A stretch of DNA of 64,000 bases. Origin: Pegea sp. RAD2-039. Taxonomy: Eukaryota; Chordata; Thaliacea; Salpida; Salpidae. Both the position numbers and the translations under genes were made by a program. Within the stretch, counting starts at the first letter, position 1; each line of letters starts with the position of its first letter. The stretch is taken from assembly GCA_034620365.1 (NCBI GenBank), contig JAQGEQ010000203.1:1-64000 (forward strand), written 5' to 3'. Below the pieces are notes generated by a model. It saw nothing but the letters and a program-made list of their open reading frames with translations, was not told the origin of the DNA and did not search any database. Positions 1 to 45,003 of this stretch are shown one piece after another.

Positions 1-1079
1 ACTGGATTTAAATAGGAGATGTAAATGTAAATGAAGGATCATTCAAATTAGGGTCAGTTCAATATTTAGATAATATTGATGCGTTTGTTGGAATCTTGAT
101 TAAGTTAAGGGCAAATGGATTTTGGTTTCAACATGTCATAAATATATATTTTCTAGAAAATTCATACAAGTTTCTATACAACTTTTAAAATAGCTAACTT
201 TAAATTCAAATATAAATAATATATACAATTTATATTAAACTGGAAAAACTTTAGAATTCTATGCTATCTACAAAATTATATTTAGATAAAAAACACTTCA
301 TTTTGAAGTAAATAAATAAATTTAGAAGTCTTTAAAAAATAAATAGATAAATACCTTCAACCAGAAAACTTCATCTTTCATTAAATGAGGATAAAAAGCC
401 AGTTATTTGTTTTCTCTAAAAATTGGTTTATTATAAGTCTACAAAATAAAGTCAGATTATTAAAATCAAATATTATAAATGACTCAAAATTTGTAGTTTA
501 GGAGAAATTATTCTTCACCATTAAAATGTTGTTAATAATAATGAAAGAAAAAAAGATTTTGATAATTAACCATAAAATATATAAACAATTTTATAGAAAA
601 GACTGTTTTATAATGTTATTATAGAAAATGCATTTTACTAAATTATGATTTATGAAGTTATGAAATATTAAATAATAATTAAGAATAATATTAAATAATG
701 GAATGAAAGATCTATCAGAAAGATCAGATTAAATTAATATAATAAATTACAATAATTCAAACTAATAAAAAATTTTATTTGTTTTTAGAATAAATCCACT
801 TTAAAAAATTTATCAAATATTAAACTAATATTTAAAGTTTAATTAACAAATTATACAAAGATTTTATAACAGTGAATTAGTAATATTTGATTATATTTAA
901 AATAATATAATTGTAAATTTCTTATTACTGCAAAATAAATTTGAAAATATTTAAATATTTTAAATATTTAAAATGATTTATTTTAAAAGATTTAAATTTT
1001 ATAATTCAATTGTAAGTATATTGAATATAATCAAGAAAAAATTATTTACAGAAATATACTAAAAAAATCAATTCAACAA
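1..1079 (-). repeat. Diverged monomer of the 1.24-kb repeat (left copy)
   Basis: Very AT-rich mirror of 33,104-34,182. It contains, on the minus strand at 355-438, an 84-bp exon-like core between splice-like signals, related to the 75-bp cores of the array at 35-42 kb. This suggests the palindrome ends inside, or continues through, a copy of the same array. Apart from that core nothing else is recognisable. Confidence 0.6.
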
Positions 1080-1103
1080 GAACTTACAAAAATAATTCAC
1101 ATC

Positions 1104-1301
1104 TTAACTAAAAACCAAACCTACAAATAAAACCAAATAAAATAAAATCTGCCAATAACTAAAAGTACCAGCTAAGAGATTTTCTTTTTCTGTGGTAAAG
1201 ATTTCCGTCAAAATTGTATTTCTGTAGGCTGGGAACTTCCCTTTCACAAAAAGTGTTTCAAATAAAAAATTCTTTTTTATTAAGTTTTTCGTTAAAGCCA
1301 T
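1104..1301 (-). CDS. Small conserved membrane-like ORF at unit end
   Basis: ORF of 65 codons starting with ATG and ending in a hydrophobic stretch (WQILFYLVLFVGL) that could be one membrane segment. The middle part, beginning ETLFVKGKFPAYRNT, is kept in frame in all five copies of the 3.64-kb unit seen here. Only this copy retains the upstream ATG; the mirror copy at 32.9 kb reads ATA at the same place. I do not recognise a family. The conservation may reflect recent duplication rather than coding. It could also be one exon of a larger gene, but no partner exon was identified. Confidence 0.3.
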   Translation of the reverse strand: MALTKNLIKKNFLFETLFVKGKFPAYRNTILTEIFTTEKENLLAGTFSYWQILFYLVLFVGLVFS

Positions 1302-2604
1302 ATTTATTAACTCATTTATGTGAATAAATAATCGAATTATAAAAATTAAAATTCCGTTTTCAGTAAAATTTAATTAAAACAGTAACTTTCTTTATGCATA
1401 ATTTTTTTATCTTTGTCACTTTGATTTTAATGTATTGTTGAAAAGCATTTCTTTGCTTGAATCAAATCAATAAGGCCTAGAAGTAAATTATTAATTGCTT
1501 TTAAGATTATACTTTTGATTTTTAAAAATGTATAGATCTAAATAAGTTGAAGTAACAAAAAACTAACAATTTTTAAAAGTTTTTAATTCAAAACACTTCT
1601 AACAAAGTAATACTGTATTCTCTTTTCAGTTACAAATAATCCACATATCTGTTGCATAAGAATCTATGAATTAAAAACAAGAAAAGTTGTCTGAGAGAAG
1701 ATTTCAAAAATAATTATATAGATTTATTTTGATAATCTTTTCAGCTCTATTGGGAAGCGCTGCGCATCAATTTCGTAAACTTTAGTTTTTGTACCATTTG
1801 AAATCAGTTGGAAGTACGAAACTTGTATAAAAATAATTTTATAATATTTCAAGACTTCGACTACCTTTAAAACTGAAATATAATATCATTAATTTTAACA
1901 AATTGAAAAACGAGGAAATCGACTTTTGCTTCTAACGGAATAAATGTTTTTATTTCATTCTTTAAATATAACACACTTGATTAAATTTTTCATCATTAAC
2001 TTCATTCTTGCGATACGAGTAAGCGATTTTAATGCTACAAATCAAATTGACAAAAACATCATACTTTTATCAGATAACAACAATTCAATAGCATAACTAC
2101 TGAAATTATGATTTATTAGTTTTTAGATCGTTTTCAAAACAACTTTTCATTTTTTCAACACTTTAACTGTTTAAAAATCTTTTATAAGTTTCAAAGTTTT
2201 TACATATAAAAGATTTCTGATGTATTTGGTATATTTAATGGATAATGTCAGAGTAGATTTTCTGATGTTTGTGATGAACTACAATTCCCTTCTAAGAGTA
2301 GCTTAGTCTAACGAGGTGGTTGTCTTTAAACTCGTTCCGCACTGTCTATAGGTGATGTTGTTGCTCGTAGCAAACCATTATTTGTTTAAATATGGTTTAA
2401 TTTTGAAAATAACTTACAATTCATTATTCAAATTTTAATTTTTTAAAATATTGACAATTCTTTGCTTAAAAGCTACTTTTTAAAAATATTCAAAATTCAT
2501 TACTCAAAATGCCAATTAAACAAATATTCAAGGTTTAGTGTTTAAAATATGCTTTCAAAAATATTCACAATTCGTTGTTCAAAATGTTATGTAAAAGTGA
2601 CCGA

Positions 2605-2705
2605 AGATCAGGATAAAGATTAGAATGAGGATTAGAAAGTAACAAAAGATGAAGACAAAGATTAAAAAGATAGGATGAAGATTGAGATGAGAAAACTGCG
2701 CAATA
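2605..2705 (+). repeat. Purine-rich degenerate GATTAGAA tract
   Basis: The plus strand is strongly purine-biased, with loosely repeated words such as AAGATTAGAATGAGGATTAG. The same tract recurs in the next unit at about 6,165-6,260 and, as pyrimidine-rich sequence, in the right arm near 24,290-24,370, 27,840-27,930 and 31,500-31,590. It looks like an old minisatellite with a period near 12-13 bases. No function is visible. Confidence 0.5.
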
Positions 2706-3354
2706 ATTCCGTTGTAACCTACATTTGGTTCAACGTCTATAAGTAATTTCTGTTTGATTACTTGTAATATCAGAGACGGCAAGATCATTTAAAAATACAT
2801 ATATTTGTTTTATTAAATAATTTTATTAACAATTAAGATTTATAAAATAAAATTTGTTAGTTTTGAAAAGTCTTAGGTATAATTACAAAGTGAGTATTTT
2901 AACGAATTTAGTAGTAATAAATATACATAGTAACAATTTTATTCGGAAAATTAGATTTGTAATTAATAATTATTTAGTTTAAACACGTTTTATACTAGTA
3001 GATAATCATAAGAGATCTTTTGCAAAAAATTAATTTTTAAATTTATGAATAAAATAAATAAATTTAAATTTTAAACAAAGATTTTAAAGAAGGCTTCTTT
3101 TCGACAACAATTAAATACATCATTAGACATAATTGCTTTATCTACCAAAATAGAATGGTAGGTAGAGTACATGGATAGGTAAAAGACAAAAACAAGGAGC
3201 TTTTCATACAAATCAGATGAAGCCATTTGTTACTTTCCTTGTTGTAAACTCTAAAATCTGTAGAAACAACTGAAAATACCTCCTCTTCGATTCGTTATCT
3301 TTTGTTCTTACTCGAAAAGTCAAACAGGAGAATATTGATTATGTTTTGAAAATG

Positions 3355-3800
3355 AAACTTAGAACATAAGGATTAGAAGATGAGAATTAGATGGTGATAA
3401 TTAGAAGATAAAGTTTAGAAACTTAAGATTAGGTGCTAAGCAATAAATGATAGAGACAAAAAAATAAAGAATAGAAGAAGTTGATTACATGATTAAGATA
3501 ACATATTTAAAAGATCGTTGTTTTTAAGTTTGTCGAAAGATCGATGATCTTCTAATGATATTTTTGAACAATTTTAAGCTCTTTAATGGTAAAAAACTTG
3601 GATGAGTGATCTCTGATTAAGTTAAGAAGATATGAGTTCGAAAATTATAAATTAGGAAGATGAAGATTAGAAAATTCAGTTTAGGAGATGATTTTGTAAA
3701 AAAATTTAATGACAAAGATCAGATAGAATATAATTTGAAAGATGGAGATTATAAGACGATATTTAGATGATTAAGATGATTAAGATGACTTATCAAAAAA
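3355..3800 (+). repeat. Purine-rich degenerate GATTAGAAGATGA tract
   Basis: Long purine-biased stretch made of variants of GATTAGAAGATGA and GATTAAGATGA. It is repeated beyond the gene block at about 9,440-9,990 and in mirror orientation in the right arm (about 20,640-21,080, 26,750-27,190 and 30,400-30,840). The strand asymmetry is maintained through hundreds of bases, as expected for a decayed minisatellite. Confidence 0.5.
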
Positions 3801-4754
3801 GATCTGCGACCTTGGTTTTAAGTTTGTTGAAAGATCAATGATTGTGTAAGAAACTCGAAAAGATTGAATTGTTTTTAAATTACTAATGATCAGATCAGAT
3901 ACCTTAGCAACTAATCTCTTTGAAATACTTTGATGAAAATTTCGTCCAATCACAGCTCATAACTGACAGAATAAATCCTTATTTATTCAGCTGATTTAAT
4001 AAGATCAAAAAAAATTAAAATGTTTAATTTCATTTAGTTTACTATTTTCATTTTTTTCAAAAGGTAAAGCCAGAAAATTGTTCTGTTTAATAAATTAATA
4101 CTTTTGCAAAAGATGAAAGCATTTTCAGCCGATTATACTAAATGTTTTGTCGAGTATTCTTTTAAAAAAAATTTAGAACCTTTTTAACCTTTGTTTAGCA
4201 GTTGTTAATTTACTTAATCAGCAAAACTTAATACCAAATTGAACCACTCAAAAAATTGAAGCTACAAAATAAACTTCCTTTTAAAAGGTCTCTGAAAATT
4301 GTAATCTAATATTTGTAACTTTTGGGACTGTTAGTCATTTTATTTAACTTTCAGAGAGATGTTTCTATAATAAATTAAGCTATAACTTTACTTTTTCTAA
4401 CAAGTTTTCACTAATATCTATATTTTTAAGCTCATAGTATTTAATAAGAGTTTTTTATCATCAACACAAGATTATTTGGCTTAAGTTTCATGTATAGCAC
4501 AAGTCCAGATCAAAACTAAATCAAGAATTGACTTAATTAACAAATAGGTTTGTGCTTGATAGTCGAAGGTTTCTTAAAAGTGACATTAAACAAGCTCACT
4601 AAAATCTAAACTTATAGTATCAACTTCACTTACCTGATATTTATAGTTTATAAAAACAACTGACTCTTACAAGTGAAGTTTTTTAGACATGTAGATTTTC
4701 AACAACAAAAAAATTTAATTCAACAAGAACTTTCGAAAATAATTAACTTTCTAA

Positions 4755-4907
4755 CTATAAAAACAAACCTACAATTAAAACCAAATAAAATAAATTATAC
4801 CAATAACTAAAACTACCAGCTACTAGATTTCCTTTTTCTGTGGTAGAGATTTTAGTCAAAATTGTATTTCTGTAGGCTGGGAACTTCCCTTTCACAAAAA
4901 GTGTTTC
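4755..4907 (-). pseudogene. Start-less copy of the small unit ORF
   Basis: Same frame as the ORF at 1,104-1,301, open for 50 codons from the shared GAA-ACA codons to a TAG. An in-frame stop lies upstream and no ATG precedes the conserved part. Several substitutions are shared with the copies at 25,628 and 29,270 (KISTTEKGNLVAGSFSYW-type), so inner copies form one subgroup and outer copies another. Confidence 0.35.
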
Positions 4908-7822
4908 GTTAAAAAAATTTATTTGTATTAAGTTTCGGTTAAAGCTTTATTTCTTAGCTCATTTATTTGAATAAATCAATAGAATTATTGAAATCAAAAT
5001 ACAATTTTAATTAAAACAGAAAATTTATTTATACATAATTTTATTTTTATCTTTGTCACTTTGATTTTAATGTATTGTTGAAAAGCATTTCTTTGCTTGA
5101 ATCAAATCAATAAGGCCTAGAAGTAAATTATTAATTGCTTTTAAGATTATACTTTTGATTTTTAAAAATGTATAGATCTAAACAAGTTGAAATAACAAAA
5201 AACTAACAATTTTTAAAAGTTTTTAATTCAAAACACTTCTAACAAAGTAATACTGTATTCTCTTTTCAGTTACAAATAATCTACATATCCGTTGCATAAG
5301 AATCTATGAATTAAAAACAAGAAAAGTTGTCTGAGAGAAGATTTCAAAAATAATTATATAGATTTAATTTGATAATCATTTCAGCTCTATTGGGAAGCGC
5401 TGCGCATCAATTTCGTAAACTTTAGTTTTTGTACCATTTGAAATCAGTTGGAAGTACGAAACTTGTATAAAAATAATTTTATAATATTTCAAGACTTCGA
5501 CTACCTTTAAAACTGAAATATAATATCATTAATTTTAACAAATTGAAAAACGAGGAAATCGACTTTTGCTTCTAACGGAATAAATGTTTTTATTTCATTC
5601 TTTAAATATAACACACTTGATTAAATTTTTCATCATTAACTTCATTCTTGCGATACGAGTAAGCGATTTTAATACTACAAATGAAATTGACAAAAACATC
5701 ATACTTTTATCAGATAACAACATTTCAATAGCATAACTGCTGAAATTATGATTTATTAGTTTTTAGATCGTTTTCAAAACAACTTTTCATTTTTTCAACA
5801 CTTTAACTGTTTAAAAATCTTTTATAAGTTTAGGATTTTTTACATATAAAAGATTTCTGATGTATCTGGTATATTTAATAGATAATGTCAGAGGAGATTT
5901 TCTGATGTTTGAGATGAACTACAATTCCCTTCTAAGGGTATCTTAGTCTTACGAGGTTGTTGCCCTTAAACTCGTTCCGCACTGTCTATAGGTGATGTTG
6001 TCGCACGTAGCAAACCATTATTTGTATAAGTATGGTTTAATTTTGAAAATACCTTACAATTCATTATTCAAATTTTAATATTTTAAAATATTGAAAATTC
6101 TTTGTTTAAAATTTACTTTCAAAAATATTCACAATTTGTTGTTCAAAATTTTATGTAAAAGTGACCAAAGATCAAGATAAAGATTACAATGAGGATTAGA
6201 AAGTAACAAAAGATGAAGACAAAGATTAAAAAATAGGATGAAGATTGAGATGAGAAAACTGCGCAATAATTCAGTTGTAACTCACATTTGGTTCAACGTC
6301 TATAAGTAATTTCTGTTTGATTACTTGTAATATCAGAGACGGCAAGATCATTTAAAAATACATATATTTGTTTTATTAAATAATTTTATTAACAATTAAA
6401 ATTTATAAAATAAATTTTTTAGTTTTGAAAAGTCTTAGGTATAATTACAAAGTGAGTATTTTAACGAATTTAGTAGTAATAAATATACATAGTAAAAATT
6501 TTATTAGGAAAATTAGATTTGTAATTAATAATTATTTAGTTTAAACATCTTTTTTACTAGCAGATAATTTTATAAGATCTTTTGCAAAAAAATAATTTTT
6601 AAATTTATGAATAAAATAAATAAAATAAATAAATTTAAATTTTAAACAAAGATTTTAAAGAAGGCTTCTTTTCGACAACAATTAAATACATCTTTAGACA
6701 TAATTACTCTATCTACCAAATTTGAATTGTAGGTAGAGTACATGGATAGGTAAAAGACAAAAACAAGGAGCTTTTCATACAAATCAGATGAAGCCATTGG
6801 TTACTTTCCTTGTTGTAAACTCTAAAATCTGTAAAAAACACGGAAAATACCTCCTCCAACATAGGATGTCTAGATCTTGATTACATCAATTTGACTGCGA
6901 GCTAAAGAGCTTAAAGAAGTATTTACTAAAAGAGCATTTAGGCTATTATTTATACTTCAATTCATTTATAAGATCATAAAAGAAATTTAGTTATAAGAGA
7001 TCAAAGAAGTGACTTAAAGTGACAAGATGACTTTTAATCTGGTTGTAGTTTATTCTTGTAAAGGCTACATAAAAAAGAACAATTAAAACTAATAAAAATT
7101 CTAGAATCAGCTACACATTTTTCAAAAAAAAATCAGCAGTTTGAAAAGATACAGTTTAAAACTGAAATAAACTTTAAGTTAGTATAGTTGAAATCTTAAA
7201 AGAAATTATTATAAAAATCACTTTTATTGATAATTATCAGTTAAATAACTGCGTAAAACTTAATAAGCAGATCTAATTTAGAATTTAATTTTGTATAAAA
7301 TACTTAAAGTTAAAGTTTCCAATAAAAAACAAAAGATGTTTCGTAAACTTTCTGAAGATTATTGTTAACAAGTCACTTTCGCCCAATTGACGTTTCACTG
7401 ACTTTGAATGTTTTAGAAAATGCTTGTAAATTAAAATTTAACATTTTACAGAATTTTAATTTAATTCATGATTATGGTGAAAAGTTTTAATTTATTTGTA
7501 TTTAAATTTCCACTATATGTATTTTCTTATAATATTATATCATGAAATAATATTTCATTAACTTTTATAAATTTTAACTAACTTTTATAAAATAATATTT
7601 TAATGTCTGAAGATAATTATATTATTCTATCTTTCATTATTTTTATTTAGAAGAAATATTTTAGTAAACTTTTAAGTGTATTCTAACTAAGAACTATTTT
7701 AAAACAATTAATACAAATTAATTACTATATAAATATCATTCCTTAACAATTTTTCTATATAAATAAATGTTTTTAATAATTTAGTTTAATCTTAAGAGGT
7801 AAAATTTAAATAAAAAATTAAG

Positions 7823-9347
7823 ATGAGCGTAACAATGTCCGATGTAATTCAACATACAAAAGATGAATTGATGTTGGCTAATCTGGCCAATATATGGCCA
7901 ATAGAATGTCCTCCTAGACTAGCTCCTCATTATCTGATGTATATGGGTGAGGACTTGAAGATTTTTCAGAAGAGAATGATAGGTGACAAAACATTTCCTA
8001 AAAGCAAAAATTTGAAATGTTTTTTTAGGAGAATCATACATCCAGAACTTGCATTCAAGGAAGAAGGTTGCTGAAATTCTTGAAAAATCTTGGGCATCTG
8101 AGCATCTGCTGGTTAATTCAGAATTTGATGAGCTTCAAATGGAAACTGGTTTGTCTTCTGAAATCATTCTGAAGTGGTTTGATTGGAAGAATAGACAACA
8201 AGGAGTTGAAACTGTGAGATAACAATTTTCTATGCTTTTGAAGTTAACAAATTTTTTTTTCAGGTTTTATCTGGTTTGATTGAAAACCATTCTTATTTAA
8301 AAGGCGACATTTTAAATTCACTATCATCTTTGTTTCGAATTTCACAAAAAGCTTTAGAAGTTCTTTGTATGAAGATCAGAGCTGACAACATGATTTTCAA
8401 AATTGACGAGAGTCAACTTGAGACGGTCAGTATCTCATCAATTTATCAATTTAACAAAATTGTATATTAAGAAATAAATTCAAATAATCAAATGTTAATG
8501 AATAAAACTTCGTTTATACTTTGATTAACTTTCTATACTTTAACTTGATTTAGTTTCAAGGCTTCTTCTTTCACTAGTGCATTTGAGAAGTTTCATAAAT
8601 TATACAAAGTTAATTTTCTATTCTAAACAATTAGAACCTTATGATGTCCTTATATTTTTATGTTTGGTTCTTGATACTGTATTATATTTGGGAATCAACT
8701 GCCAACAAATTTTTGCAAATAGATCAAATGTTGTTTTCAACAATTTAGTAAACAGTCAATTGATACACATTAGCACCTTATCTTGTGAAACCTCCTCAGC
8801 CTCAAACACTCAGCTGTTCTTATTTTTATAAAAAAATTTAGAAAATTAGATGCTAGTGATTGAAGGTGATGAGGAGTCTGTATGAATCTTTAATAAAAAG
8901 TTTGTAATTAAAAATGAAATTTAACATTTGCAGAGTTTAATGAAAGAGTTTTTACTTCATCGACATGAATCCAATAAATTTTCTAGCATCGAAAGAATAT
9001 CTTCATCATTCGAACTTAGTGCTGAAGATGTCGTTGAAATTTTCAACTGCTGGTCGACAATTGATTTGGATGAAGATTCTGCAGAAATTAAAAATGGCCC
9101 TCTTCCACCCCAGCTTGACACCATTACTGAAGAGAAACCCTCATCACGTGAGTTGATGTCTTTCTGCATTAGGATCTGTTTATCAAATTTATACTTTACA
9201 GAATTTCATTTGGATTTTGAACAATCAAAAGAAAATAAGAAGTTAATGAACATGATGAAAACAAATGACTCAAAAAAAGAAGCAGATCCTGATGAAGCTT
9301 CCTCATCTTCATCTGAAGTGAGGACTGAAGAATTTCCTGTGTCTTAA
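7823..9347 (+). CDS. Triple-homeodomain putative transcription factor, five exons
   Basis: Exons 7,823-7,982, 8,029-8,213, 8,264-8,425, 8,934-9,147 and 9,202-9,347 join in phase across four GT-AG introns to give 288 codons. Exon 2 encodes a homeodomain-like segment in which the usual core positions fit: L16, W20, L26, L34, L40, I45, W48, F49 (LKWFDWKNRQQ in the recognition helix). N51 is not conserved in register. Exon 3 fits a second, more diverged segment (L16, I20, Y25-L26, L34, I40, L45, R53), and exon 4 a third (I34, L40, V45, I48, F49). The tail is acidic and serine-rich. Nematode HOCHOB-type genes with several diverged homeodomains are the closest analogy I know. DNA binding in the nucleus is inferred. 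The start is the first ATG after an AT-rich leader, with a second in-frame ATG four codons later. Confidence 0.78.
8426..8933 (+). other. Long intron 3 of the homeodomain gene
   Basis: The 508-bp intron begins GTCAGT and ends TTTGCAG. It contains an open frame of 84 codons (8,577-8,831) that stays nearly intact in the mirror gene, with a short in-frame deletion of two codons. The frame lacks homeodomain-like positions and has no convincing splice sites joining it in phase, so I treat it as intron. An alternative exon cannot be excluded. Confidence 0.5.
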
Positions 9348-10796
9348 TATAAAAAGAAATATTGATTCAAACTTGAATACAGATAATAACTCTAATTCCA
9401 ATGCTTCGTTATCTCTTGTTCTTACTCGAAAAGTCAAACAGGAGAATATTGATTAAGTTTTGAAATTGAAAATTAGAAGATAAGGATTAGAAGATTAGGA
9501 CTAAGAAATGAGGATTAGATGGTGATAATTAGGAGATGAAGTTTAGAGTAGCAAGATTAAGTGCTAAAGACTAAATGATAAAGACAAAAAGGTAAAGATT
9601 AGAAGAAGTTGATTAGAGATGAAGATAACTTATTTAAAAGATCGTTGTACTTAAGTTTTTCGAAATATCGATGATCTTCTAATTAAATTTTTGAACATTT
9701 CAAGCTCTTTAATGATAAAAAACTTGGATGAGTCTTTCAAACCATTAAATACTTTTGGAAAATAAAAAAAAAAGTTTCTTTTTCTGTTCTTACTCAAAAC
9801 CTTTCGCAGTATGAGTGATCTCTGATTAAGTTTAAAATATAAAAGGTTCGAAAATTATAAGTTTAGAAGATGAAGATTAGAAAATTCAGTTTAGGAGATT
9901 ATTAGGTGAAAAAAATGAATAATAAAGATCAGATAAAATATAATTCAAAAGATGGAGATTAAAAGACGATATTTAGAAGATTAAGATGACTTATCAAAAA
10001 AGATCTGTGACTTTGGTTTTAAGTTTGTTAAAAGATCAATGATTGTGTAAGAAACTCGAACAGATTGAATTGTTTTAAATTACTAATGATCAGATCAGAT
10101 ACCTTAGCAACTAATTTCTTTGAAATATTTTGATGAAAATTTCGTCCAATCACAGCTCATAACTGACAAAATAAATCCGTATTTATTCAGCTGATATAAT
10201 AAGATCAAAAAAAATTTAAATGTTTAATTTCATTTAGTTTACTATTTGCATTTTTGTTAAAGATATAAATTAAATTTACAACAAATATAGCTTATATCAG
10301 TGCAACAAAACTTACTTTAAATGTTATATAATCATCTAATGTCGTTTTCTCTGCATTTGCTGAAAAATATTAACAAAATATTAGAAGCAATACAGTTTAA
10401 CCAAATTCTTATAAAAGTTCATTTATAAATGGTAATTACTAGTAAAGCTGTTTGACTTTTTTGGAGTTTAATCAAGGTTTCAATCTAAACAAAAAGAGCT
10501 ATCGACAGTTGTTTCAACCTTTCAATAAACTGAAACCCCTACCACTAATGATGATGGTTGCAGGTTTCTTAAAACTGACATTTAACAAGCTCACTAAAAT
10601 CTAAACGTTTTGTATTAACTTCAATTACCTGATATTTATAGTTTATAAAAATAACGGACTTTTACAAGTGACTGTTTTTAGACATGCAGATTTTTTAATT
10701 ATCTTTTAAAATTACCAAACAATTATTAAACAACTTAACAAACTTCTAATAAAGTAATTGGAAAATTAAATTTCAATTTCTGCTCTGATTTTATAA

Positions 10797-10869
10797 GCCC
10801 GGTTAGCTCAGTCGGTAGAGCGTTGGACTTTTAATCCAACGGTCGCGGGTTCAAGTCCCTCATCGGGCG
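10797..10869 (+). tRNA. tRNA-Lys (anticodon TTT)
   Basis: 73-nt cloverleaf. The acceptor stem GCCCGGT pairs with ATCGGGC, leaving discriminator G. The D arm carries the A-box TAGCTCAGTCGG, and the anticodon stem TTGGA/TCCAA encloses loop CTTTTAA with anticodon TTT at 10,830-10,832. The T arm carries the B-box GGGTTCAAGTCCC. There is no intron. It is duplicated in mirror orientation at 17,280-17,352 with identical sequence. It lies in the palindrome arm between the SG-rich gene and the 3.64-kb unit. Confidence 0.97.
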
Positions 10870-11645
10870 GCTTTAATTTTAACATTTTAAAAATAAATCA
10901 AAATTCGTTAATACCAAATATCAAAATAGTAAAATTTATTCCAAATCTCCAAAAGTAAAAATAGTTTTTAGTAAAATGGAGATATTTACAACAATTTACC
11001 ATTTTAAATTTACTAAGTTCGAACAAACACTTGATTTATAATCTATATTAATCAATATTACAACTGACTTATTTTAGACCTGTAGACATTTAAATTAGAT
11101 TTAAATTATTTTATGTTTGATAATATAGAAGTAATTTTTATATTTTAATTTCCCTACATTTTAGATTATTTTATTGAGAAAATTTGAAGTTTTTAACTTA
11201 TAAGATTAATCGATGAAAGTTCTTAATTTAAGGTAAATAACCAAATAATATATTATTTAAATTTCAAGGAGAACTACCATTTATTTATTTTATTAATTAC
11301 AAAAAAATGAAAGAAATATATTTTCAAGAAAAGTTGTTTTAAAATCGGCCTTTCAAAAAGATTTAAAAATCATTGCATAATAATGGTAATATCTTAATTA
11401 ATTTTTATTGGTTATTTTTTAAATAAAGGAATTTAAAATATACAAAAATATATATAAAACATAAGAATAGGATAGAGTAATGTTTTAAAAAGAATAATTT
11501 TTTTACTGTAAAATACATGATAGCTAAATTTATTAGTTTAGTTTATGCTTTATATCAAGATAATCAAATATTTCAAAATGTAGATTGAACAAACTTATTA
11601 AATATTTACAAGATACATTATTTTCAGACTGGTCAATTATAGAAT

Positions 11646-21139: not shown

Positions 21140-23676
21140 GCATTGGAATTAGTGTTATTATCTGTATTCAAGTTTGAATCAATATTTCTTTTTATATTAA
21201 GACACAGGAAATTCTTCAGCTTTCACTTCAGATGAAGATGAGGAGCTTCATCAGGATCTGCTTCTTTTTTTGAGTCATTTGTTTTCATCATGTTCATTAA
21301 CTTCTTATTTTCTTTTGATTGTTCAAAATCCAAATGAAATTCTGTAAAGTATAAATTTGATAAACAGATCCTAATGCAGAAAGACATCAACTCACGTGAT
21401 GAGGGTTTCTCTTCAGTAATGGTGTCAAGCTGGGGTGGAAGAGGGACATTTTTAATGTCTGCAGAATCTTCATCCAAATCAATTGTCGACCAGCAGTTGA
21501 AAATTTCAACGACATCTTCAGCACTAAGTTCGAATGATGAAGAAATTCTTTCGATGCTAGAAAATTTATTGGATTCATGTCGATGAAGTAAATACTCCTT
21601 CATTAAACTCTGCAAATGTTAAATTTCATTTTTAATTACAAACTTTTTATTAAAGATTCATACAGACTCCTCATCACCTTCAATCACTAGCATCTAATTT
21701 TCTAAAATTTTTTATAAAAATAAGAACAGCTGAGTGTTTGAGGCTGAGGAGGTTTCACAAGATAAGGTGCTAATCAATTGACTGTTTACTAAATTGTTGA
21801 AAACAACATTTGATCTATTTGCAAAAATTTGTTGGCAGTTGATTCCCAAATATAATACAGTATCAAGAACCAAACATAAAAATATAAGGACATCATAAGG
21901 TTCTAATTGTTTAGAATAGAAAATTAACTTTGTATAATTTATGAAACTTCTCAAATGCACTAGTGAAAGAAGAAGCCTTGAAACTAAATCAAGTTAAAGT
22001 ATAGAAAGTTAATCAAAGTATAAACGAAGTTTTATTCATTAACATTTGATTATTTGAATTTATTTCTTAATATACAATTTTGTTAAATTGATAAATTGAT
22101 GAGATACTGACCGTCTCAAAATGACTCTCGTCAATTTTGAACATCATGTTGTCAGCTCTGATCTTCATACAAAGAACTTCTAAAGCTTTTTGTGAAATTC
22201 GAAACAAAGATGATAGTGAATTTATAATGTCGCCTTTTAAATAAGAATGGTTTTCAATCAAACCAGATAAAACCTGAAAAAAAATTTGTTAACTTCAAAA
22301 TCATAGAAAATTGTTATCTCACAGTTTCAACTCCTTGTTGTCTATTCTTCCAATCAAACCATTTAAGTATGATTTCAGAAGACAAACCAGTTTCCTTTTG
22401 AAGCTCATCAAATTCTGAATTAACCAGCAGATGCTCAGATGCCCAAGATTTTTCAAGGATTTCAGCAACCTTCTTCCTTGAATGCAAGTTCTGGATGTAT
22501 GATTCTCCTAAAAAAAACATTTTAAATTTTTGCTTTTAGGAAATGTTTTGTCACCTATCATTCTCTTCTGGAAAATCTTCAAGTCCTCACCCATATACAT
22601 CAGATAATGAGGAGCTAGTCTAGGAGGACATTCTATTGGCCATATATTGGCCAGATTAGCCAACATCAATTCATCTTTTGTATGTTGAATTACATCGGAC
22701 ATTGTTACGCTCATCTTAATTTTTTATTTAAATTTTACCTCTTAAGATTAAACTAAATTATAAAAAACATTTATTTATATATAAAAATTGTTAAGGAATG
22801 ATATTTATATAGTAATTAATTTGTATTAATTGTTTTAAAATAGTTCTTAGTTAGAATATCCTTAAAGTTTATTAAAATATTTTTTCTAAATAAAAATAAT
22901 GAAAGATAGAATAATATAATTATCTTCAGATATTAAAATATTATTTTATAAGTTAGTAAAATTTATAAAAGTTAATGAAATATTATTTCATGATATAATA
23001 TATTAAGAAAATACATAGAGAGGAAATTTAAATACAAATAAATTAAAACTTTTAACCATAATCATGAATTAAAATTAAAATTCTGTAAAATGTTAAATTT
23101 TAATTTACAAGCATTTTCTAAAACATTCAAAGTCAGTGAAACGTCAATTGGGCGAAAGTGACTTGTTAACAATAATCTTCAAAAAGTTTACGAAACATCT
23201 TTTGTTTTTTATTGGAAACTTTAACTTTAAGTATTTTATATAAAATTAAATTCTAAATTAGATCTGCTTATCGAGTTTTACGCAGTTATTCAACTGATAA
23301 TTATCAATAAATGTGATTTTTATAATAATTTCTTTTAAGATTTCAACTGTACTAATTTAAAGTTTATTTCAGTTTTAAACTGTATCTTCTTAAACTGCTG
23401 ATATTTTTGAAAAATGTGTAGCTGCTTCTAGAGGTTTTTATTAGTTTTAACTGTTCTTTTTTATGTAGCCTTTACAAGAATAAACTACAACCAGATTAAA
23501 AGTCATCTTGTCACTTTAAGTCACTTCTCTGATCTCTTATAACTAAATTTCTTTTATAATCTTATAAATGAATTGAAATATCAATAATAGCCTAAATGCT
23601 CTTTTAGTAAATACTTCTTTAAGCTCTTTAGCTCGCAGTCAAATTGATGTAATCGAGATCTAGACATCTTATGTTG
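21140..23676 (-). other. Homeodomain gene block in the right arm
   Basis: Mirror of 6,857-9,414 with the same two junctions against the 3.64-kb unit, so the block was in place before the palindrome formed or was copied with it. Outside the gene it contains AT-rich flanks with no other recognisable feature. Confidence 0.75.
21197..22714 (-). pseudogene. Frameshifted mirror copy of the triple-homeodomain gene
   Basis: All five exons are present in order (22,555-22,714, 22,323-22,507, 22,112-22,274, 21,396-21,609 and from 21,341 down), and splice sites are kept. Exon 1 encodes the same residues as the left copy. Exon 3 has one extra T in the run after CTGG (near 22,260-22,263), giving 163 instead of 162 bases and an early stop. 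Exon 5 lacks one base near 21,242, so its acidic tail ends early. By eye there are about eight amino-acid changes (for example G to V and E to D in exon 4) against about five silent ones, consistent with relaxed constraint. A truncated product of exons 1-2 could still be made. Confidence 0.75.
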
Positions 23677-25627
23677 GAGGAGGTATTTTCAGTTGTTTCT
23701 ACAGATTTTAGAGTTTACAACAAGGAAAGTAACCAATGGCTTCATCTGATTTGTATGAAAAGCTCCTTGTTTTTGTCTTTTACCTATCCATGTACTCTAC
23801 CTACAATTCAAATTTGGTAGATAGAGTAATTATGTCTAAAGATGTATTTAAATGTTGTCGAAAAGAAGCCTTCTTTAAAATCTTTATTTAAAATTTAAAT
23901 TTATTTATTTTATTTATTTTATTCATAAATTTAAAAATTATTTTTTTGCAAAAGATCTCTTATAATTATCTACTAGTATAAAACGTGTTTAAACTAAATA
24001 ATTATTAATTACAAATCTAATTTTCCTAATAAAATTTTTTTTATGTATATTTATTACTACTAAATTCGTTAAAATACTCACTTTGTAATTATACCTAAGA
24101 CTTTTCAAAACTAAAAAATTTTATTTTATAAATCTTTATTGTTTATAAAATTATTTAATAAAACAAATATATGTATTTTTAAATGATCTTGCCGTCTCTG
24201 ATATTACAAGTAATCAAACAGAAATTACTTATAGACGTTGAAACAACTGCAAGTTGCAACTGAATTATTGCGCTGTTTTCTCATCTCAATCTTCATCCTA
24301 TCTTTTTAATCTTTGTCTTCAATTTTGTTACTTTCTAATCCTCATTGTAATCTTAATCTTGATCTTTGGTCACTTTTACATACCATTTTGAACAACGAAT
24401 TTTGAATATTTTTAAAAAGTAACCTTTAAACAAAGAATTTTCAATATTTTTAAAAATTAAAATTTGAATAATGAATTGTAAGTTATTTTCAAAATTAAAC
24501 CATACTTAGACAAATAATGGTTTGCTACGTGCGACAACATCACCTATAGACAGTGCGGAACGAGTTTAAGGGCAACAACCTCGTAAGACTAAGATACCCT
24601 TAGAAGGGAATTGTAGTTCATCTCAAACATCAGAAAATCTACTCTGACATTATCTATTAAATTTACCAGCTACATCAGAAATCTTTTATATGTAAAAACT
24701 CCTAAACTTATAAAAGAGTTTTAAACAGTTAAAGTGTTGAAAAACTGAAATGTTGGTTTGAAAACGATCTAAAAACTAATAAATCATAATTTCAGCAGTT
24801 ATGCTATTGATTTGTAGTTATCTGATAAAAGTATGATGTTTTTGTCAATTTGATTTGTAGCATTAAAATCGCTTACTCGTATCGCAAGAATGAAGTTAAT
24901 GATGAAAAATTTAATCAAGTGTGTTATATTTAAAGAATGAAATAAAAACATTTATTCCGTTAGAAGGAAAAGTCGATTTCCTCGTTTTTCAAATTGTTAA
25001 AATTAATGAAATTAGATTTCAGTCTTAAAGGTAGTCGAAGTCTTGAAATATTATAAAATTATTTTTATACAAGTTTCGTACTTCCAACTGATTTCAAATG
25101 GTACAAAAACTAAAGTTTACGAAATTGATGCGCAGCGCTTCCCAATAGAGCTGAAAAGATTATCAAAATAAATCTATATGATTATTTTTGAAATCTTCTC
25201 TCAGACAACTTTTCTTGTTTTTAATTCATAGATTCTTATGCAACGGATATGTAGATTATTTGTAACTGAAAAGAGAATACAGTATTACTTTGTTAGAAGT
25301 GTTTTGAATTAAAAACTTTTAAAAATTGTTAGTTTTTTGTTACTTCAACTTATTTAGATCTATACATTTTAAAAAATCAAAAGTATAATCTTAAAAGCAA
25401 TTAATAATTTACTTCTAGGCCTTATTGATTTGATTCAAGCAAAGAAATGCTTTTTAACAATACATTAAAATCAAAGTGACAAAGATAAAAATAAAATTAC
25501 GTATAAATAAATTTTCTGTTTTAATTAAAATTGTATTTTGATTTCAATAATTCTATTGATTTATTCAAATAAATGAGCTAAGAAATAAAGCTTTAACCGA
25601 AACTTAATACAAATAAATTTTTTTAAC

Positions 25628-25780
25628 GAAACACTTTTTGTGAAAGGGAAGTTCCCAGCCTACAGAAATACAATTTTGACTAAAATCTCTACCACAGAAA
25701 AAGGAAATCTAGTAGCTGGTAGTTTTAGTTATTGGTATAATTTATTTTATGTGGTTTTAATTGTAGGTTTGTTTTTATAG
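25628..25780 (+). pseudogene. Start-less copy of the small unit ORF
   Basis: 50 codons open from ETLFVKGKFPAY to TAG, with no preceding ATG in frame and a stop upstream. Nearly identical to the copy at 29,270-29,422. Confidence 0.35.
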
Positions 25781-25825
25781 TTAGAAAGTTAATTATTTTG
25801 GAAAATTGTTGTTGAATTAAATTTT

Positions 25826-28800
25826 TTTGTTGTTGAAAATCTACATGTCTAAAAAACTTCACTTGTAAGAGTCAGTTGTTTTTATAAACTATAAATATCA
25901 GGTAAGTGAAGTTGATACTATAAGTTTAGATTTTAGTGAGCTTGTTTAATGTCACTTTTAAGAAACCTTCGACTATCAAGCACAAACCTATTTGTTAATT
26001 AAGTCAATTCTTGATTTAGTTTTGATCTGGACTTGTGCTATACATGAAACTTAAGCCAAATAATCTTGTGTTGATGATAAAAAACTCTTATTAAATACTA
26101 TGAGCTTAAAAACATAGATATTAGTGAAAACTTGTTAGAAAAAGTAAAGTTATAGCTTAATTTATTATAGAAACATCTCTCTGAAAGTTAAATAAAATGA
26201 CTAACAGTCCCAAAAGTTACAAATATTAGATTACAATTTTCAGAGACCTTTTAAAAGGAAGTTTATTTTGTAGCTTCAATTTTTTGAGTGGTTCAATTTG
26301 GTATTAAGTTTTGCTGATTAAGTAAATTAACAACTGCTAAACAAAGGTTAAAAAGGTTCTAACTTTTTTTTAAAAGAATACTCGACAAAACATTTAGTAT
26401 AATCGGCTGAAAATGCTTTCATCTTTTGAAAAAGTATTAATTTATTAAACAGAACAATTTTCTGGCTTTACCTTTTGAAGAAAATGAAAATAGTAAACTA
26501 AATGAAATTAAACATTTTAATTTTTTTTGATCTTATTAAATCAGCTGAATAAATAAGGATTTATTCTGTCAGTTATGAGCTGTGATTGGACAAAATTTTC
26601 ATCAAAGTATTTCAAAGAGATTAGTTGCTAAGGTATCTGATCTGATCATTAGTAATTTAAAAACATTTCAATCTTTTCGAGTTTCTTACACAATCATTGA
26701 TCTTTCAACAAACTTAAAACCAAGGTCGCAGATCTTTTTTGATAAGTCATCTTAATCATCTTAATCATCTAAATATCGTCTTATAATCTCCATCTTTCAA
26801 ATTATATTCTATCTGATCTTTGTCATTAAATTTTTTACAAAATCATCTCCTAAACTGAATTTTCTAATCTTCATCTTCCTAATTTATAATTTTCGAACTC
26901 ATATCTTCTTAACTTAATCAGAGATCACTCATCCAAGTTTTTTACCATTAAAGAGCTTAAAATTGTTCAAAAATATCATTAGAAGATCATCGATCTTTCG
27001 ACAAACTTAAAAACAACGATCTTTTAAATATGTTATCTTAATCATGTAATCAACTTCTTCTATTCTTTATTTTTTTGTCTCTATCATTTATTGCTTAGCA
27101 CCTAATCTTAAGTTTCTAAACTTTATCTTCTAATTATCACCATCTAATCCTCATCTTCTAATCCTTATGTTCTAAGTTTCATTTTCAAAACATAATCAAT
27201 ATTCTCCTGTTTGACTTTTCGAGTAAGAACAAAAGATAACGAATCGAAGAGGATGTATTTTCAGTTGTTTCTACAGATTTTAGAGTTTACAACAAGGAAA
27301 GTAACAAATGGCTTCATCTGATTTGTATGAAAAGCTCCTTGTTTTTGTCTTTTACCTATCCATGTACTCTACCTACCATTCTATTTTGGTAGATAAAGCA
27401 ATTATGTCTAAAGATGTATTTAATTGTTGTCGAAAAGAAGCCTTTTTTAAAATCTTTGTTTAAAATTTAAACTTATTTATTTTATTTAATTTATTCCTAA
27501 ATATAGAAATTAATTTTTTTGCAAAAGATCATTATCTACTAGTATAAAAGGTGTTTAAACTAAATAATTATTAATTACAAATCTAATTTTCCTAATAAAA
27601 TTTTTACTATGTATATTTATTACTACTAAATTCGTTAAAATACTCACTTTGTAATTATGCCTAAGACTTTTCAAAACTAAAAAAATTTATTTTATAAATC
27701 TTAATTGTTTATAAAATTATTTAATAAAACAAATATATGTATTCTTAAATGATCTTGCCGTCTCTGATATTACAAGTAATCAAACAGAAATTACTTATAG
27801 ACGTTGAACCAAATGTAAGTTACAACTGAATTATTGCGCAGTTTTCTCATCTCATTCTTCATCCTATCTTTTTAATGTTTGTCTTCATCTTTTGTTACTT
27901 TCTAATCCTCATTCTAATCTTTATCCTAATCTTTGGTCACTTTTACATAACATTTTGAACAACGAATTGTGAACATTTTTGAAAGTAAATTTTAAACACT
28001 ACATCTTGAATATTTGTTTAATTGGCATTTTGAGTAATGAATTTTGAATATTTTTAAAAAGTAACATTTAAACAAAGAGTTTTCTATATTTTAAAAAATA
28101 AAAATTTGAATAATAAAGTGTAAGTTATTTTCAAAATTAAACCATACTTAGACAAATAATGGTTTGCTACCTGCGACAACATCACCTATAGACAGTGCGG
28201 AACGAGTTTAAGGGCAACAACCTCGTAAGACTAAGATACCCTTAGAAGGGAATTGTAGTTCATCTCAAACATCAGAAAATCTACTCTGACATTATCCATT
28301 AAATGTACCAGATACATCGGAAATCTTTTATATGTAAAAACTCTTAAACTTATAAAAGATTTTTAAACAGTTAAAGTGTTGAAAAAATGAAAAGTTGTTT
28401 TGAAAACGATCTATAAACTAATAAATCATAATTTCAGCAGTTATGCTATTGAAATGTTGTTATCTGATAAAAGTATGATGTTTTTGTCAATTTGATTTGT
28501 AGCATTAAAATCGCTTACTCGTATCGCAAGAATGAAGTTAATGATGAAAAATTTAATCAAGTGTGTTATATTTAAAGAATGAAATAAAAACATTTATTCC
28601 GTTAGAAGGAAAAGTCGATTTCCTCGTTTTTCAAATTGTTAAAATTAATGAAATTAGATTTCAGTCTTAAAGGTAGTCGAAGTCCTGAAATATTATAAAA
28701 TTATTTTTATACAAGTTTCGTACTTCCAACTGATTTCAAATGGTACAAAAACTAAAGTTTACGAAATTGATGCGCAGCGCTTCCCAATAGAGCTGAAATG

Positions 28801-29468
28801 ATTATCAAATTAAATCTATATAATTATTTTTGAAATCTTCTCTCAGACAACTTTTCTTGTTTTTAATTCATAGATTCTTATGCAACGGATATGTAGATTA
28901 TTTGTAACTGAAAAGAGAATACAGTATTACTTTGTTAGAAGTGTTTTGAATTAAAAACTTTTAAAAATTGTTAGTTTTTTGTTACTTCAACTTATTTAGA
29001 TCTATACATTTTTAAAAATCAAAAGTATAATCTTAAAAGCAATTAATAATTTACTTCTAGGCCTTATTGAGTTGATTCAAGCAAAGAAATGCTTTTCAAC
29101 AATACATTAAAATCAAAGTGACAAAGATAAAAATAAAATTATGTATAAATAAATTTTCTGTTTTAATTAAAATTGTATTTTGATTTCAAAAATTCTATTG
29201 ATTTATTCAAATAAATGAGCTAAGAAATAAAGCTTTAACCGAAACTTAATACAAATAAATTTTTTTAACGAAACACTTTTTGTGAAAGGGAAGTTCCCAG
29301 CCTACAGAAATACAATTTTGACTAAAATCTCTACCACAGAAAAAGGAAATCTAGTAGCTGGTAGTTTTATTTATTGGTATAATTTATTTTATTTGGTTTT
29401 AATTGTAGGTTTGTTTTTATAGTTAGAAAGTTAATTATTTTGGAAAGTTCTTGTTGAATTAAATTTTT
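25826..29468 (+). repeat. 3.64-kb tandem unit, middle right copy
   Basis: Uninterrupted unit, offset 3,642 from the previous one on the GCGCTTCCCA landmark (25,135 and 28,777). By eye it is almost identical to the next unit. It has no equivalent position in the left arm, which has one unit fewer. Confidence 0.9.
29270..29422 (+). pseudogene. Start-less copy of the small unit ORF
   Basis: Same 50-codon open stretch as at 25,628, ending in TAG, with no start codon upstream. It lies at the junction between two units. Confidence 0.35.
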
Positions 29469-32400
29469 TTGTTGTTGAAAATCTACATGTCTAAAAAACT
29501 TCACTTGTAAGAGTCAGTTGTTTTTATAAACAATAAATATCAGGTAAGTGAAGTTGATACTATAAGTTTAGATTTTAGTGAGCTTGTTTAATGTCACTTT
29601 TAAGAAACCTTCGACTATCAAGCACAAACCTATTTGTTAATTAAGTCAATTCTTGATTTAGTTTTGATCTGGACTTGTGCTATACATGAAACTTAAGCCA
29701 AATAATCTTGTGTTGATGATAAAAAACTCTTATTAAATACTATGAGCTTAAAAACATAGATATTAGTGAAAACTTGTTGGAAAAAGTAAAGTTATAGCTT
29801 AATTTATTATAGAAACATCTCTCTGAAAGTTAAATAAAATGACTAACAGTCCCAAAAGTTACAAATATTAGATTATAATTTTCAGAGACCTTTTAAAAGG
29901 AAGTTTATTTTGTAGCTTCAATTTTTTGAGTGGTTCAATTTGGTATTAAGTTTTGCTGATTAAGTAAATTAACAACTGCTAAACAAAGGTTAAAAAGGTT
30001 CTAAATTTTTTTTAAAAGAATACTCGACAAAACATTTAGTATAATCGGCTGAAAATGCTTTCATCTTTTGAAAAAGTATTAATTTATTAAACAGAACAAT
30101 TTTCTGGCTTTACCTTTTGAAAAAAATGAAAATAGTAAACTAAATGAAATTAAACATTTTAATTTTTTTTGATCTTATTAAATCAGCTGAATAAATAAGG
30201 ATTTATTCTGTCAGTTATGAGCTGTGATTGGACGAAATTTTCATCAAAGTATTTCAAAGAGATTAGTTGCTAAGGTATCTGATCTGATCATTAGTAATTT
30301 AAAAACATTTCAATCTTTTCGAGTTTCTTACACAATCATTGATCTTTCAACAAACTTAAAACCAAGGTCGCAGATCTTTTTTGATAAGTCATCTTAATCA
30401 TCTTAATCATCTAAATATCGTCTTATAATCTCCATCTTTCAAATTATATTCTATCTGATCTTTGTCATTAAATTTTTTTACAAAATCATCTCCTAAACTG
30501 AATTTTCTAATCTTCATCTTCCTAATTTATAATTTTCGAACTCATATCTTCTTAACTTAATCAGAGATCACTCATCCAAGTTTTTTACCATTAAAGAGCT
30601 TAAAATTGTTCAAAAATATCATTAGAAGATCATCGATCTTTCGACAAACTTAAAAACAACGATCTTTTAAATATGTTATCTTAATCATGTAATCAACTTC
30701 TTCTATTCTTGATTTTTTTGTCTCTATCATTTATTGCTTAGCACCTAATCTTAAGTTTCTAAACTTTATCTTCTAATTATCACCATCTAGTCCTCATCTT
30801 CTAATCCTTATGTTCTAAGTTTCATTTTCAAAACTTAATCAATATTCTCCTGTTTGACTTTTCGAGTAAGAACAAAAGATAACGATGCGAAGAGGAGGTA
30901 TTTTCAGTTGTTTCTACAGATTTTAGAGTTTACAACAAGGAAAGTAACAAATGGCTTCATCTGATTTGTATGAAAAGCTCCTTGTTTTTGTCTTTTACCT
31001 ATCCATGTACTCTACCTACCATTCTATTTTGGTAGATAAAGCAATTATGTCTAAAGATGTATTTAATTGTTGTCGAAAAGAAGCCTTTTTTAAAATCTTT
31101 GTTTAAAATTTAAATTTATTTATTTTATTTATTTTATTCATAAATTTAAAAATTAATTTTTTGCAAAAGATCTTTTATAATTATCTACTAGTATAAAAGG
31201 TGTTTAAACTAAATAATTATTAATTACAAATCTAATTTTCCTAATAAAATTTTTACTATGTATATTTATTACTACTAAATTCGTTAAAATACTCTCTTTT
31301 TAATTATACCTATGACTTTTCAAAACTAAAAAATTTTATTTTATAAATCATAATTGTTAATAAAATTATTTAATAAAACAAATATATGTATTTTTAAATG
31401 ATCTTGCCGTCTCTGATATTACAAGTAATCCAACAGAAATTACTTATAGACGTTAAACCAAATGTAAGTTACAACTGAATTATTGCGCAGTTTTCTCATC
31501 TCAATCTTCATCCTATTTTTTAATCTTTGTCTTCATCTTTTGTTACTTTCTAATCCTCATTCTAATCTTTATCCTGATCTTCGGTCACTTTTACATAACA
31601 TTTTAAACAACGAATTTTGAATATTTTTGAAAGTAAATTTTAAACACTACATCTTGATCATTTGTTTAATTGGCATTTTAAGTAATGAATTTTGAATATT
31701 TTTAAAAAGTAACTTATAAACAAAGAATTTTCAATATTTTTAAAAATTAAAATTTGAATAATGAATTGTAAGTTATTTTCAAAATTAAACCATACTTCGA
31801 CAAATAATGGTTTGCTACGTGCGACAACATCACCTATAAACAGTGCGGAACGAGTTTAAGGACAACCACCTCGTTAGACTAAGCTACCCTTAGAAGGGAA
31901 TTGTAGTTCATCTCAAACATCAGAAAGTCTACTCTGACATTATCCATTAAATATACCAGATACATCAGAAATCTTTTATATGTAAAAACTTTTAAACTTA
32001 TAAAAGAGTTTTAAACAGTTAAAGTGTTGAAAAACTGAAATGTTGTTTTGAAAACGATCTAAAAACTAATAAATCATAATTTCAGCAGTTATGCTATTGA
32101 ATTGTTGTTATCTGATAAAAGTATGATGTTTTTGTCAATTTCATTTGTAGCATTAAAATCGCTTACTCGTATCGCAAGAATGAAGTTAATGATGAAAAAT
32201 TTAATCAAGTGTGTTATATTTAAAGAATGAAATAAAAACATTTATTCCGTTAGAAGCAAAAGTCGATTTATTCCTTTTTCAAATTGTTAAAATTAATGAA
32301 ATTAGATTTCAGTCTTAAAGGTAGTTGAAGTCTTGAAATATTATAAAAATATTTTTTTACAATTACATACTTCCAACTTATTTCAAATGGTACAAAAACT

Positions 32401-33103
32401 AAAGTTTACGAAATTGATGCGCAGCGCTTCCCAATAGAGCTGAAAAGATTATCAAAATAAATCTATATAATTATTTTTGAAATCTTCTCTCAGACAACTT
32501 TTCTTGTTTTTAATTCATAGATTCTTATGCAACGGATATGTAGATTATTTGTAACTGAAAATAGAATACAGTATTACTTTTTTAGAAGTGTTTTGAATTA
32601 AAAACTTTTAAAAATTGTTAGTTTTTTGTTACTTCAACTTATTTAGAATTATACATTTTTAAAAATCAAAAGTATAATCATAAAAACAATTAATAATTTA
32701 CTTCTAGGCTTATTGATTTGATTCAAGCAAAGAAATGCTTTTCAACAACACATTAAAATCAAAGTGACAAAGATAAAAAAATTATGCATAAAGAAAGTTA
32801 CTGTTTTAATTAAATTTTACTGAAAACGGAATTTTAATTTTTATAATTCGATTGATTTATTCACATAAATGAGTTAATAAATATAGCTTTAACGAAAAAC
32901 TTGATAAAAAAGAATTTTTTATTTGAAACACTTTTTGTGAAAGGGAAGTTCCCAGCCTACAGAAATACAATTTTGACGGAAATCTTTACCACAGAAAAAG
33001 AAAATCTCTTAGCTGGTACTTTTAGTTATTGGCAGATTTTATTTTATTTGGTTTTATTTGTAGGTTTGTTTTTAGTTAAGATGTGAATTATTTTTGTAAG
33101 TTC
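29469..33103 (+). repeat. 3.64-kb tandem unit, outer right copy
   Basis: Landmark at 32,424, offset 3,647 from the middle copy. It corresponds to the outer left unit (1,080-4,720) in mirror orientation, including the outer-type small ORF at its end. Confidence 0.9.
32901..33086 (+). CDS. Outer-type small unit ORF, mirror of 1,104-1,301
   Basis: Same product as the left copy over about 50 residues, with the same hydrophobic C-terminus, but the upstream ATG of the left copy is ATA here. The frame can only be opened from a TTG or another non-ATG codon. The stop differs slightly (reads through to VKM). No family recognised; probably not an independent gene. Confidence 0.22.
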   Translation: MIKKNFLFETLFVKGKFPAYRNTILTEIFTTEKENLLAGTFSYWQILFYLVLFVGLFLVKM

Positions 33104-34182
33104 TTGTTGAATTGATTTTTTTAGTATATTTCTGTAAATAATTTTTTCTTGATTATATTCAATATACTTACAATTGAATTATAAAATTTATATCTTTTAA
33201 AATAAATCATTTTAAATATTTAAAATATTTAAATATTTTCAAATTTATTTAGCAGTAATAAGAAATTTACAATTATATTATTTTAAATATAATCAAATAT
33301 TACTAATTCACTGTTATAAAATCTTTGTATAATTTGTTAATTAAACTTTAAATATTATTTTAATATTTGATAAATTTTTTAAAGTGGATTTATTCTAAAA
33401 ACAAATAAAATTTTTTATTAGTTTAAATTATTGTAATTTATTATATTAATTTAATCTGATCTTTCTTATAGATCTTTCATTCTATTATTTAATATTATTC
33501 TTAATTATTATTTTATATTTCATAACTTCATAAATCATAATTTAGTAAAATGCATTTTCTATAATAACATTATAAAACAGTCTTTTCTATAAAATTGTTT
33601 ATATATTTTATGGTTAATTATCAAAATCTTTTTTTCTTTCATTATTATTAACAACATTTTAATGGTGAAGAATAATTTTTCTAAAACTACAAATTTTGAG
33701 TCATTTATAATATTTGATTTTAATAATCTGACTTTATTTTGTAGACTTATAATAAACCAATTTTTAGAGAAAACAAATAACTGGCTTTTTATCCTCATTT
33801 AATGAAAGATGAAGTTTTCTGGTTGAAGGTATTTATCTATTTATTTTTTAAAGACTTCTAAATTTATTTATTTACTTCAAAATGAAGTGTTTTTTATCTA
33901 AATATAATTGTGTAGATAGCATAGAATTCTAAAGTTTTTCCAGTTTAATATAAATTGTATATATTATTTATATTTGAATTTAAAGTTAGCTATTTTAAAA
34001 GTTGTATAGAAATTTGTATGAATTTTCTAGAAAATATATATTTCTGACATGTTGAAACCAAAATCCATTTGCCCTAAACTTAATCAAGATTCCAACAAAC
34101 GCATCAATATTATCTAAATATTGAACTGACCCTAATTTGAATGATCCTTCATTTACATTTACATCTCCTATTTAAATCCAGT
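33104..34182 (+). repeat. Diverged monomer of the 1.24-kb repeat (right copy)
   Basis: Related to the array that follows: the stretch with TTTATAATATTTGATTTTAA, an exon-like core and a donor-like GGTATTT occur in the same order as in the 1.24-kb monomers. It is more diverged than the monomers at 35-42 kb and is the part mirrored at the window start. Confidence 0.6.
33745..33828 (+). pseudogene. Exon-like core of diverged monomer (84 bp)
   Basis: Lies between TTTTGTAG and GGTATTT signals. Aligned to the 75-bp cores it keeps TATAAT near the start and TTGAAG at the end and is nine bases longer, so both lengths are multiples of three. The frame used by the open cores has a stop here. Confidence 0.35.
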
Positions 34183-44957: not shown

Positions 44958-45003
44958 AACAAAAATATGAAAGTACAACATTGTGATTATTTGTGATCCA
45001 ATG

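Follow-up and report, generated by a model that had tools for sequence, protein, structure and literature searches.

The palindromes of the mammalian X and Y chromosomes are, in the passages of PMC8981503 that concern them, inverted arms with arm-to-arm gene conversion. The flip/flop on Saccharomyces chromosome XIV, as parts of PMC9731477 describe it, has 4 kb repeats and a 24 kb flipping region; its inverted repeats are homogenised within strains, the intervening segment occurs in both orientations and a tRNA gene lies in the repeat. For Adineta vaga and Folsomia candida, sections of PMC7953838 and PMC5490193 describe palindromes as inverted gene blocks with possible mis-assemblies among them, and give a wide Ks range for those of F. 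candida.

We analysed the first 64,000 bases of contig C182, here called the window (bases 1-64000); the contig measures 119,132 bp and belongs to a genome assembly of 105.7 Mb in 387 contigs. The palindrome in the window is present in two contigs, C182 and C195, with four distinct arms (left and right on each: 182L, 182R, 195L and 195R), mosaic sharing of variants and opposite orientations of the centre. With a probability of roughly 60%, we read these two copies as one locus in two haplotypes, where an inverted segmental duplication that is real and spans 56 kb or more has undergone arm-to-arm exchange and a flip of its centre. The features of the window are collected in Table 1.

Table 1. 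Features of the palindrome and its surroundings, in window coordinates.
Feature	Position	Strand	Remarks
Left arm	1..11961	+	12.0 kb; outer side cut by start of contig C182; self-comparison
Spacer	11962..16177	.	4,216 bp
Right arm, portion partnered inside window	16178..34182	-	18.0 kb; self-comparison
Right arm, outer part	34183..58095	-	Left-arm partner absent from C182, present on C195 (21,107 to ~32.5 kb)
Homeodomain-like gene, left copy	7823..9317	+	Exons 7823-7982, 8029-8213, 8264-8425, 8934-9147, 9202-~9317 (3' end uncertain)
Homeodomain-like gene, right copy	21223..22714	-	Exon 5 one base shorter, frame shifted there
Two-exon small-protein gene (boundary gene)	11646..12244	-	Straddles arm/spacer boundary; open in 182L and 195R; exon join by eye
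Boundary gene, 5'-truncated copy	16176..16493	+	Inner end of right arm; without signal-peptide exon
tRNA-Lys(TTT), left arm	10797..10869	+	
tRNA-Lys(TTT), right arm	17280..17352	-	
3.64-kb tandem unit, left arm	1061..6149	+	1.4 copies (P 1061-2511, Q, P 4707-6149); self-comparison
3.64-kb tandem unit, right arm	24384..33122	-	2.4 copies; self-comparison
1.24-kb tandem array	34510..42472	+	6 full units and a partial
Tandem duplication, period ~8.6-9.4 kb	43262..61295	+	Reverse-transcriptase-like fragments (by eye); contains outer end of right arm

Compared with itself, the window gave inverted matches between 1-6149 and 34182-28027 (97.6% identity), 1061-9635 and 29470-20909 (96.6%), 9689-10548 and 20911-20051 (96.9%) and, beside the spacer, 10705-11961 and 17444-16178 (90.9%), each with an E-value printed as 0.0. 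These bear out an earlier note on this DNA, which had described arms of about 12 and 18 kb around a spacer of about 4.2 kb; the self-comparison gives 12.0 and 18.0 kb, with the spacer at 11962-16177. The same note had put the palindrome at no less than 34 kb, and here the inverted arms stand but the extent does not: since the window begins at base 1 of C182, position 34182 is a mere cut-off point of the left arm and no true boundary, and on C195 the structure measures at least 56 kb. The right arm within the window reaches ~58.1 kb, by way of the 1.24-kb tandem array and the 8.6-9.4-kb duplication. Beside 10548, ~2.4 kb that are present in the right arm are missing from the left (sequence lengths 8,255 and 5,859). 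The 6,145 bases aligned between 1-6149 and its partner hold 58 transitions, 77 transversions and 7 gaps, and arm differences that consist mostly of substitutions do not look like raw-read error.

When the spacer was compared with the genome (40 of 64 candidates scored), two near-full-length matches were found among those listed, C182 itself and C195:43581-47654 (98%), and the remaining 39 of the 41 were short. The C195 spacer is 99.14% identical to that of the window over 4,184 aligned bases, a difference of 0.86% (36/4,184). Contig C195 (85,150 bp) runs through a left arm, the spacer and then a right arm that reaches the contig end; its palindrome begins at ~21,107 and reaches 77,423 or beyond, the left arm measuring 22.4 kb and the right no less than 29.7 kb, and takes in the 1.24-kb tandem array and the outer duplicated block. 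Outside the 97% arms, C195 20,523-21,045 and C182 63,238-63,830 match inversely at 84-90%, which may point to an inverted duplication of greater age, now decayed, that stretches outward. Each contig stops short of unique flank on at least one side, so that allelism is presumed rather than proven: C182 and C195 would represent two haplotypes of one locus.

At the inner end of the arms, the protein of the boundary gene has a signal-peptide-like start (judged by eye), a Gly-Ser-Asp-rich repeat and a hydrophobic tail, and the signal-peptide-like exon sits inside the spacer. Because the right-arm copy is without this exon, the duplication would have its inner breakpoint inside the boundary gene, and the left copy looks like the original one. 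A gene and a tRNA had been claimed for both arms, and indeed tRNA-Lys(TTT) and one multi-exon gene were found on each side. Against the genome the inner arm had 45 matches (40 of 58 candidates scored), many reaching barely beyond a tRNA-Lys(TTT)-like copy, on C50 (~423-638 kb), C198, C208 and others; on C50 the tRNA-Lys match lies near a relative of the boundary gene. A tRNA-Asn(GTT) is located at window 61598-61671, immediately outside the duplicated block.

The multi-exon gene reads under the standard code, with five exons and GT-AG introns in all four copies. A relative at C10:365625-366877 shares four matching stretches with it at 40-63% amino-acid identity, and splice positions can be traced there by eye. 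Both exon 2 alone (PF11569, 16.8 bits with a cut-off of 21; PF00046, 14.2 with a cut-off of 22.9) and the five-exon protein (best PF25525, 19.5 with a cut-off of 27; PF11569, 13.6) score under the Pfam cut-offs. A single-sequence structure model of exon 2 has three helices (pLDDT 78.2), and the best 50 of its 298 matches in the PDB are nearly all homeodomains, the best at E 0.23 and 0 at E <=0.001. We call the predicted protein homeodomain-like, which is short of certified membership among the homeodomains. A candidate sixth exon was rejected: the frame is not carried on into it, and two of the four copies (182R and 195L) have stops in this reading.

As for coding constraint, the changes segregating in this gene comprise 13 synonymous ones among 165 sites and 14 non-synonymous ones among 669, and the ratio of 0.26 (Fisher P 0.0007) points to constraint on the putative product. 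Against constraint count the exons, which taken together are at least as variable as the four introns (27/836 and 14/651 sites), the pairwise pN/pS of ~0.75 (0.0166/0.022) between 182R and 195L, and the one-base-shorter exon 5 in the right copy on C182.

The arms also differ in number of tandem units, as the earlier note had stated: the 3.64-kb unit has 1.4 copies in 182L and 2.4 in 182R, and on C195 there are 2.4 in the right arm and one partial copy in the left. Full units of the 1.24-kb array are found on C182 and C195 only, among the genome matches listed, and elsewhere there are short diverged fragments. Further along C182, from 68 to 119 kb, lie several large repeats, mostly of 91-97% identity, that hold Kelch and BTB coding fragments, among which reverse-transcriptase and PHD-like LINE fragments are scattered. 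Behind the arm gene, at window 9450-9630, there is a minisatellite with a 14-bp period that recurs on many other contigs at ~67-80% identity, and at its end C195 (1-1573) consists of ~112 copies of a 14-bp minisatellite. C220:25610-25792 and C221:25529-25712 have the same matches at near-equal coordinates and are perhaps another haplotype pair. A search of the assembly for COX1 gave no match, while eight of 14 controls matched; the assembly may lack mitochondrial DNA. The AT content had brought a ciliate to mind, but this reading was rejected: the arm gene with its GT-AG introns reads under the standard code, CCCCAA telomere repeats were absent, and a Cbs-like pattern occurred 32 times as against 52 for its reversed control. 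Nematode SL1, allowing up to 1 mismatch, and a bdelloid leader likewise had no match. Neither RF00025 nor PF00379 matched, but their controls stayed silent as well, so that these two negatives are weak.

The four arms were aligned over window 6103-11961 and the partners of that segment, where the six arm pairs are 95.6-97.0% identical. Over 6103-10548 the six pairs, both those within a contig and those between contigs, differ by 2.41-3.38%, as compared to 0.86% for the spacer (Fisher P 2e-8 to 9e-17). This excess of arm divergence over that of the spacer counts for exchange, because without exchange allelic arms should match each other roughly as closely as the spacers do. Up to 11455 there are 46 conflicting 2:2 sites among 5,068 gap-free sites (gapped columns dropped), of which 19 group the arms of the same contig, 17 those of the same side and 10 those of opposite sides; in 300 runs of a star-tree simulation with strong rate variation, such sites averaged 4.87 under recurrent mutation and numbered 12 at most. 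The site labels cluster, with 25 of 46 neighbouring pairs in agreement where 15.4 are expected (47 sites up to 11500), which a fraction of 0.00225 of 20,000 shuffles matched. A clustered mosaic of this sort would be as expected under conversion or crossing over, and equally under an assembler that switches between arms.

The tract of 182L at 10552-11555 is unusually divergent and rich in private differences, so that conversion has not been uniform, and among singletons there is no excess that would indicate GC-biased conversion (W>S 85, S>W 97). That homogenisation between the arms is incomplete, as had been proposed, agrees with the 96.6-97.6% of the main blocks and the ~91% beside the spacer, and also with the clustered conflicting sites unless the assembly has mixed the arms.

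Beside the spacer (11456-11961) all 23 of the 23 split sites group 182L with 195R, and the intact boundary gene is in these same two arms, the truncated copy being in 182R and 195L; the C195 spacer aligns to that of C182 in minus orientation. Farther out, over 1,853 gap-free sites at 34183-36038, the odd arm is 195L at 80 sites, 195R at 19 and 182R at 10, and window 48223-57118 aligns to 195R in plus orientation with 99.56% identity over 8,896 bases, free of differences from 52,793 to 56,943; the two right arms also agree in their 2.4 copies of the 3.64-kb unit. These alignments give the centre opposite orientations on C182 and C195 when the outer right arm is taken as reference. The contrast is visible on the right side only and between two contigs, the left outer arm being missing from C182.

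The pairing of 182R with 195R starts only beyond 34.18 kb: it is absent at 33122-34182 (odd sites 5/13/8), and no arm pairing is seen over 1-1302 and its partners, where pairs are 98.15-98.85% identical and 182R-195R is the lowest at 98.15%. The change-over would lie somewhere from ~11.5 kb in the left arm, or the matching right-arm position, to 34.2 kb. In the block at 42 kb, the first kilobase has 195L and 195R closest (98.2% vs 95.0-95.5%), which counts against side-by-side pairing; over the entire block the odd sites are 126 for 195L, 102 for 182R and 35 for 195R.

We infer that recombination, and not assembly, produced both the mosaic and the flip. The main rival, which we regard as unlikely, is mis-phasing of a palindrome that is itself real: the contigs would switch between arms or haplotypes, and the mosaic and the inverted centre would both be phasing errors. 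In its favour, many reads are shorter than the arms, which are ~97% identical; the start of C182 and the end of C195 both fall within the palindrome; and near the end of C195 there are zero differences between C182 and 195R over 4.15 kb (52,793-56,943), as if shared reads had fed both contigs. Set against these points are the private substitutions of each arm (110, 47, 75 and 46 singletons across the four-arm alignment), by which the arms were resolved at base level, and the tandem-unit numbers and the intact or truncated boundary gene, structural states that differ between arms.

Alternatively, C182 and C195 might be two paralogous palindromes at separate places, recent duplicates rather than alleles. 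No common unique flank joins the two contigs and the region is full of large duplications, as this account would have it, but the spacer has exactly two near-full-length matches among those listed, as two haplotypes would give, and C220 and C221, by their matching coordinates, would likewise resemble a haplotype pair; we consider paralogy improbable. A pure assembly artefact, whether it came from a head-to-head joining of two alleles or from a fold-back read, is highly improbable, and the earlier note had already argued against a simple one: erroneous scaffolding is a recognised source of artificial palindromes in the pertinent section of PMC7953838 and the contig start coincides with the end of the left arm, but in place of identical arms or at most two allelic sequences there are four different arms, ~97% identical, with private, mostly substitutional differences and few indels, a centre that recurs in a second contig and a truncated gene at the breakpoint.

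Returning to one locus in two haplotypes, we propose the following history. The palindrome would sit within a cluster of tandem and inverted duplications, and sequence up to 11961 would have been copied in inverted orientation across the 4.2-kb spacer, truncating one copy of the secreted-protein-like boundary gene, as the truncation itself implies. Gene conversion, together with an occasional crossover, would then have moved sequence between the two arms of each haplotype. Such exchange would hold the arms ~97% alike, with a divergence from arm to arm about equal to that between the contigs, and would leave the centre oppositely oriented with respect to the outer right arms on the C182 and C195 haplotypes. 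This leads us to a bolder speculation, to which we give somewhat less than an even chance: that the arms form one recombining pool across haplotypes, with the centre heterozygous for orientation within the sequenced sample. The palindrome, 56 kb or more in length and belonging to a small AT-rich animal genome, would then be a natural flip/flop with 20-30-kb arms, in which a duplicated homeobox-like gene and a tRNA-Lys evolve in concert.

On the view that C182 and C195 are two haplotypes, heterozygosity for the flip would be expected in the sample. The locus supplies, in an animal-like genome, a candidate orientation polymorphism that can be put to the test and a case in which arm-to-arm exchange could be measured simultaneously between arms and between haplotypes. 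It also represents a caution, as most of a palindrome can be hidden by contig starts.

The locus is a large gene-bearing palindrome, with long inverted arms, a small spacer and genes on both sides, and, assembly mis-phasing aside, its arms appear to exchange sequence as those of gene-bearing palindromes do. In common with the mammalian X and Y palindromes, so far as the passages of PMC8981503 describe them, it has arms of tens of kb that flank a spacer, and apparent arm-to-arm exchange. Unlike theirs, given there as >99% identical, the arms here are ~97% alike (96.6-97.6% over the main blocks and 90.9% next to the spacer), an identity far below that of strongly converted palindromes and one that counts against our preferred reading. 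It resembles the structures reported for A. vaga and F. candida in the sections of PMC7953838 and PMC5490193 concerned, which are also palindromes in small invertebrate genomes, with the difference that here the arms are seen at the DNA level and in two contigs. The likeness to the yeast flip/flop, as parts of PMC9731477 present it, lies in inverted repeats, a tRNA gene in the repeat and a middle that appears to occur in both orientations, whereas the arms here are 22-30 kb, the spacer is 4.2 kb and the orientations come from two contigs only. In its apparent behaviour the locus matches two known kinds, palindromes that convert from arm to arm and inverted repeats with a flipping middle.
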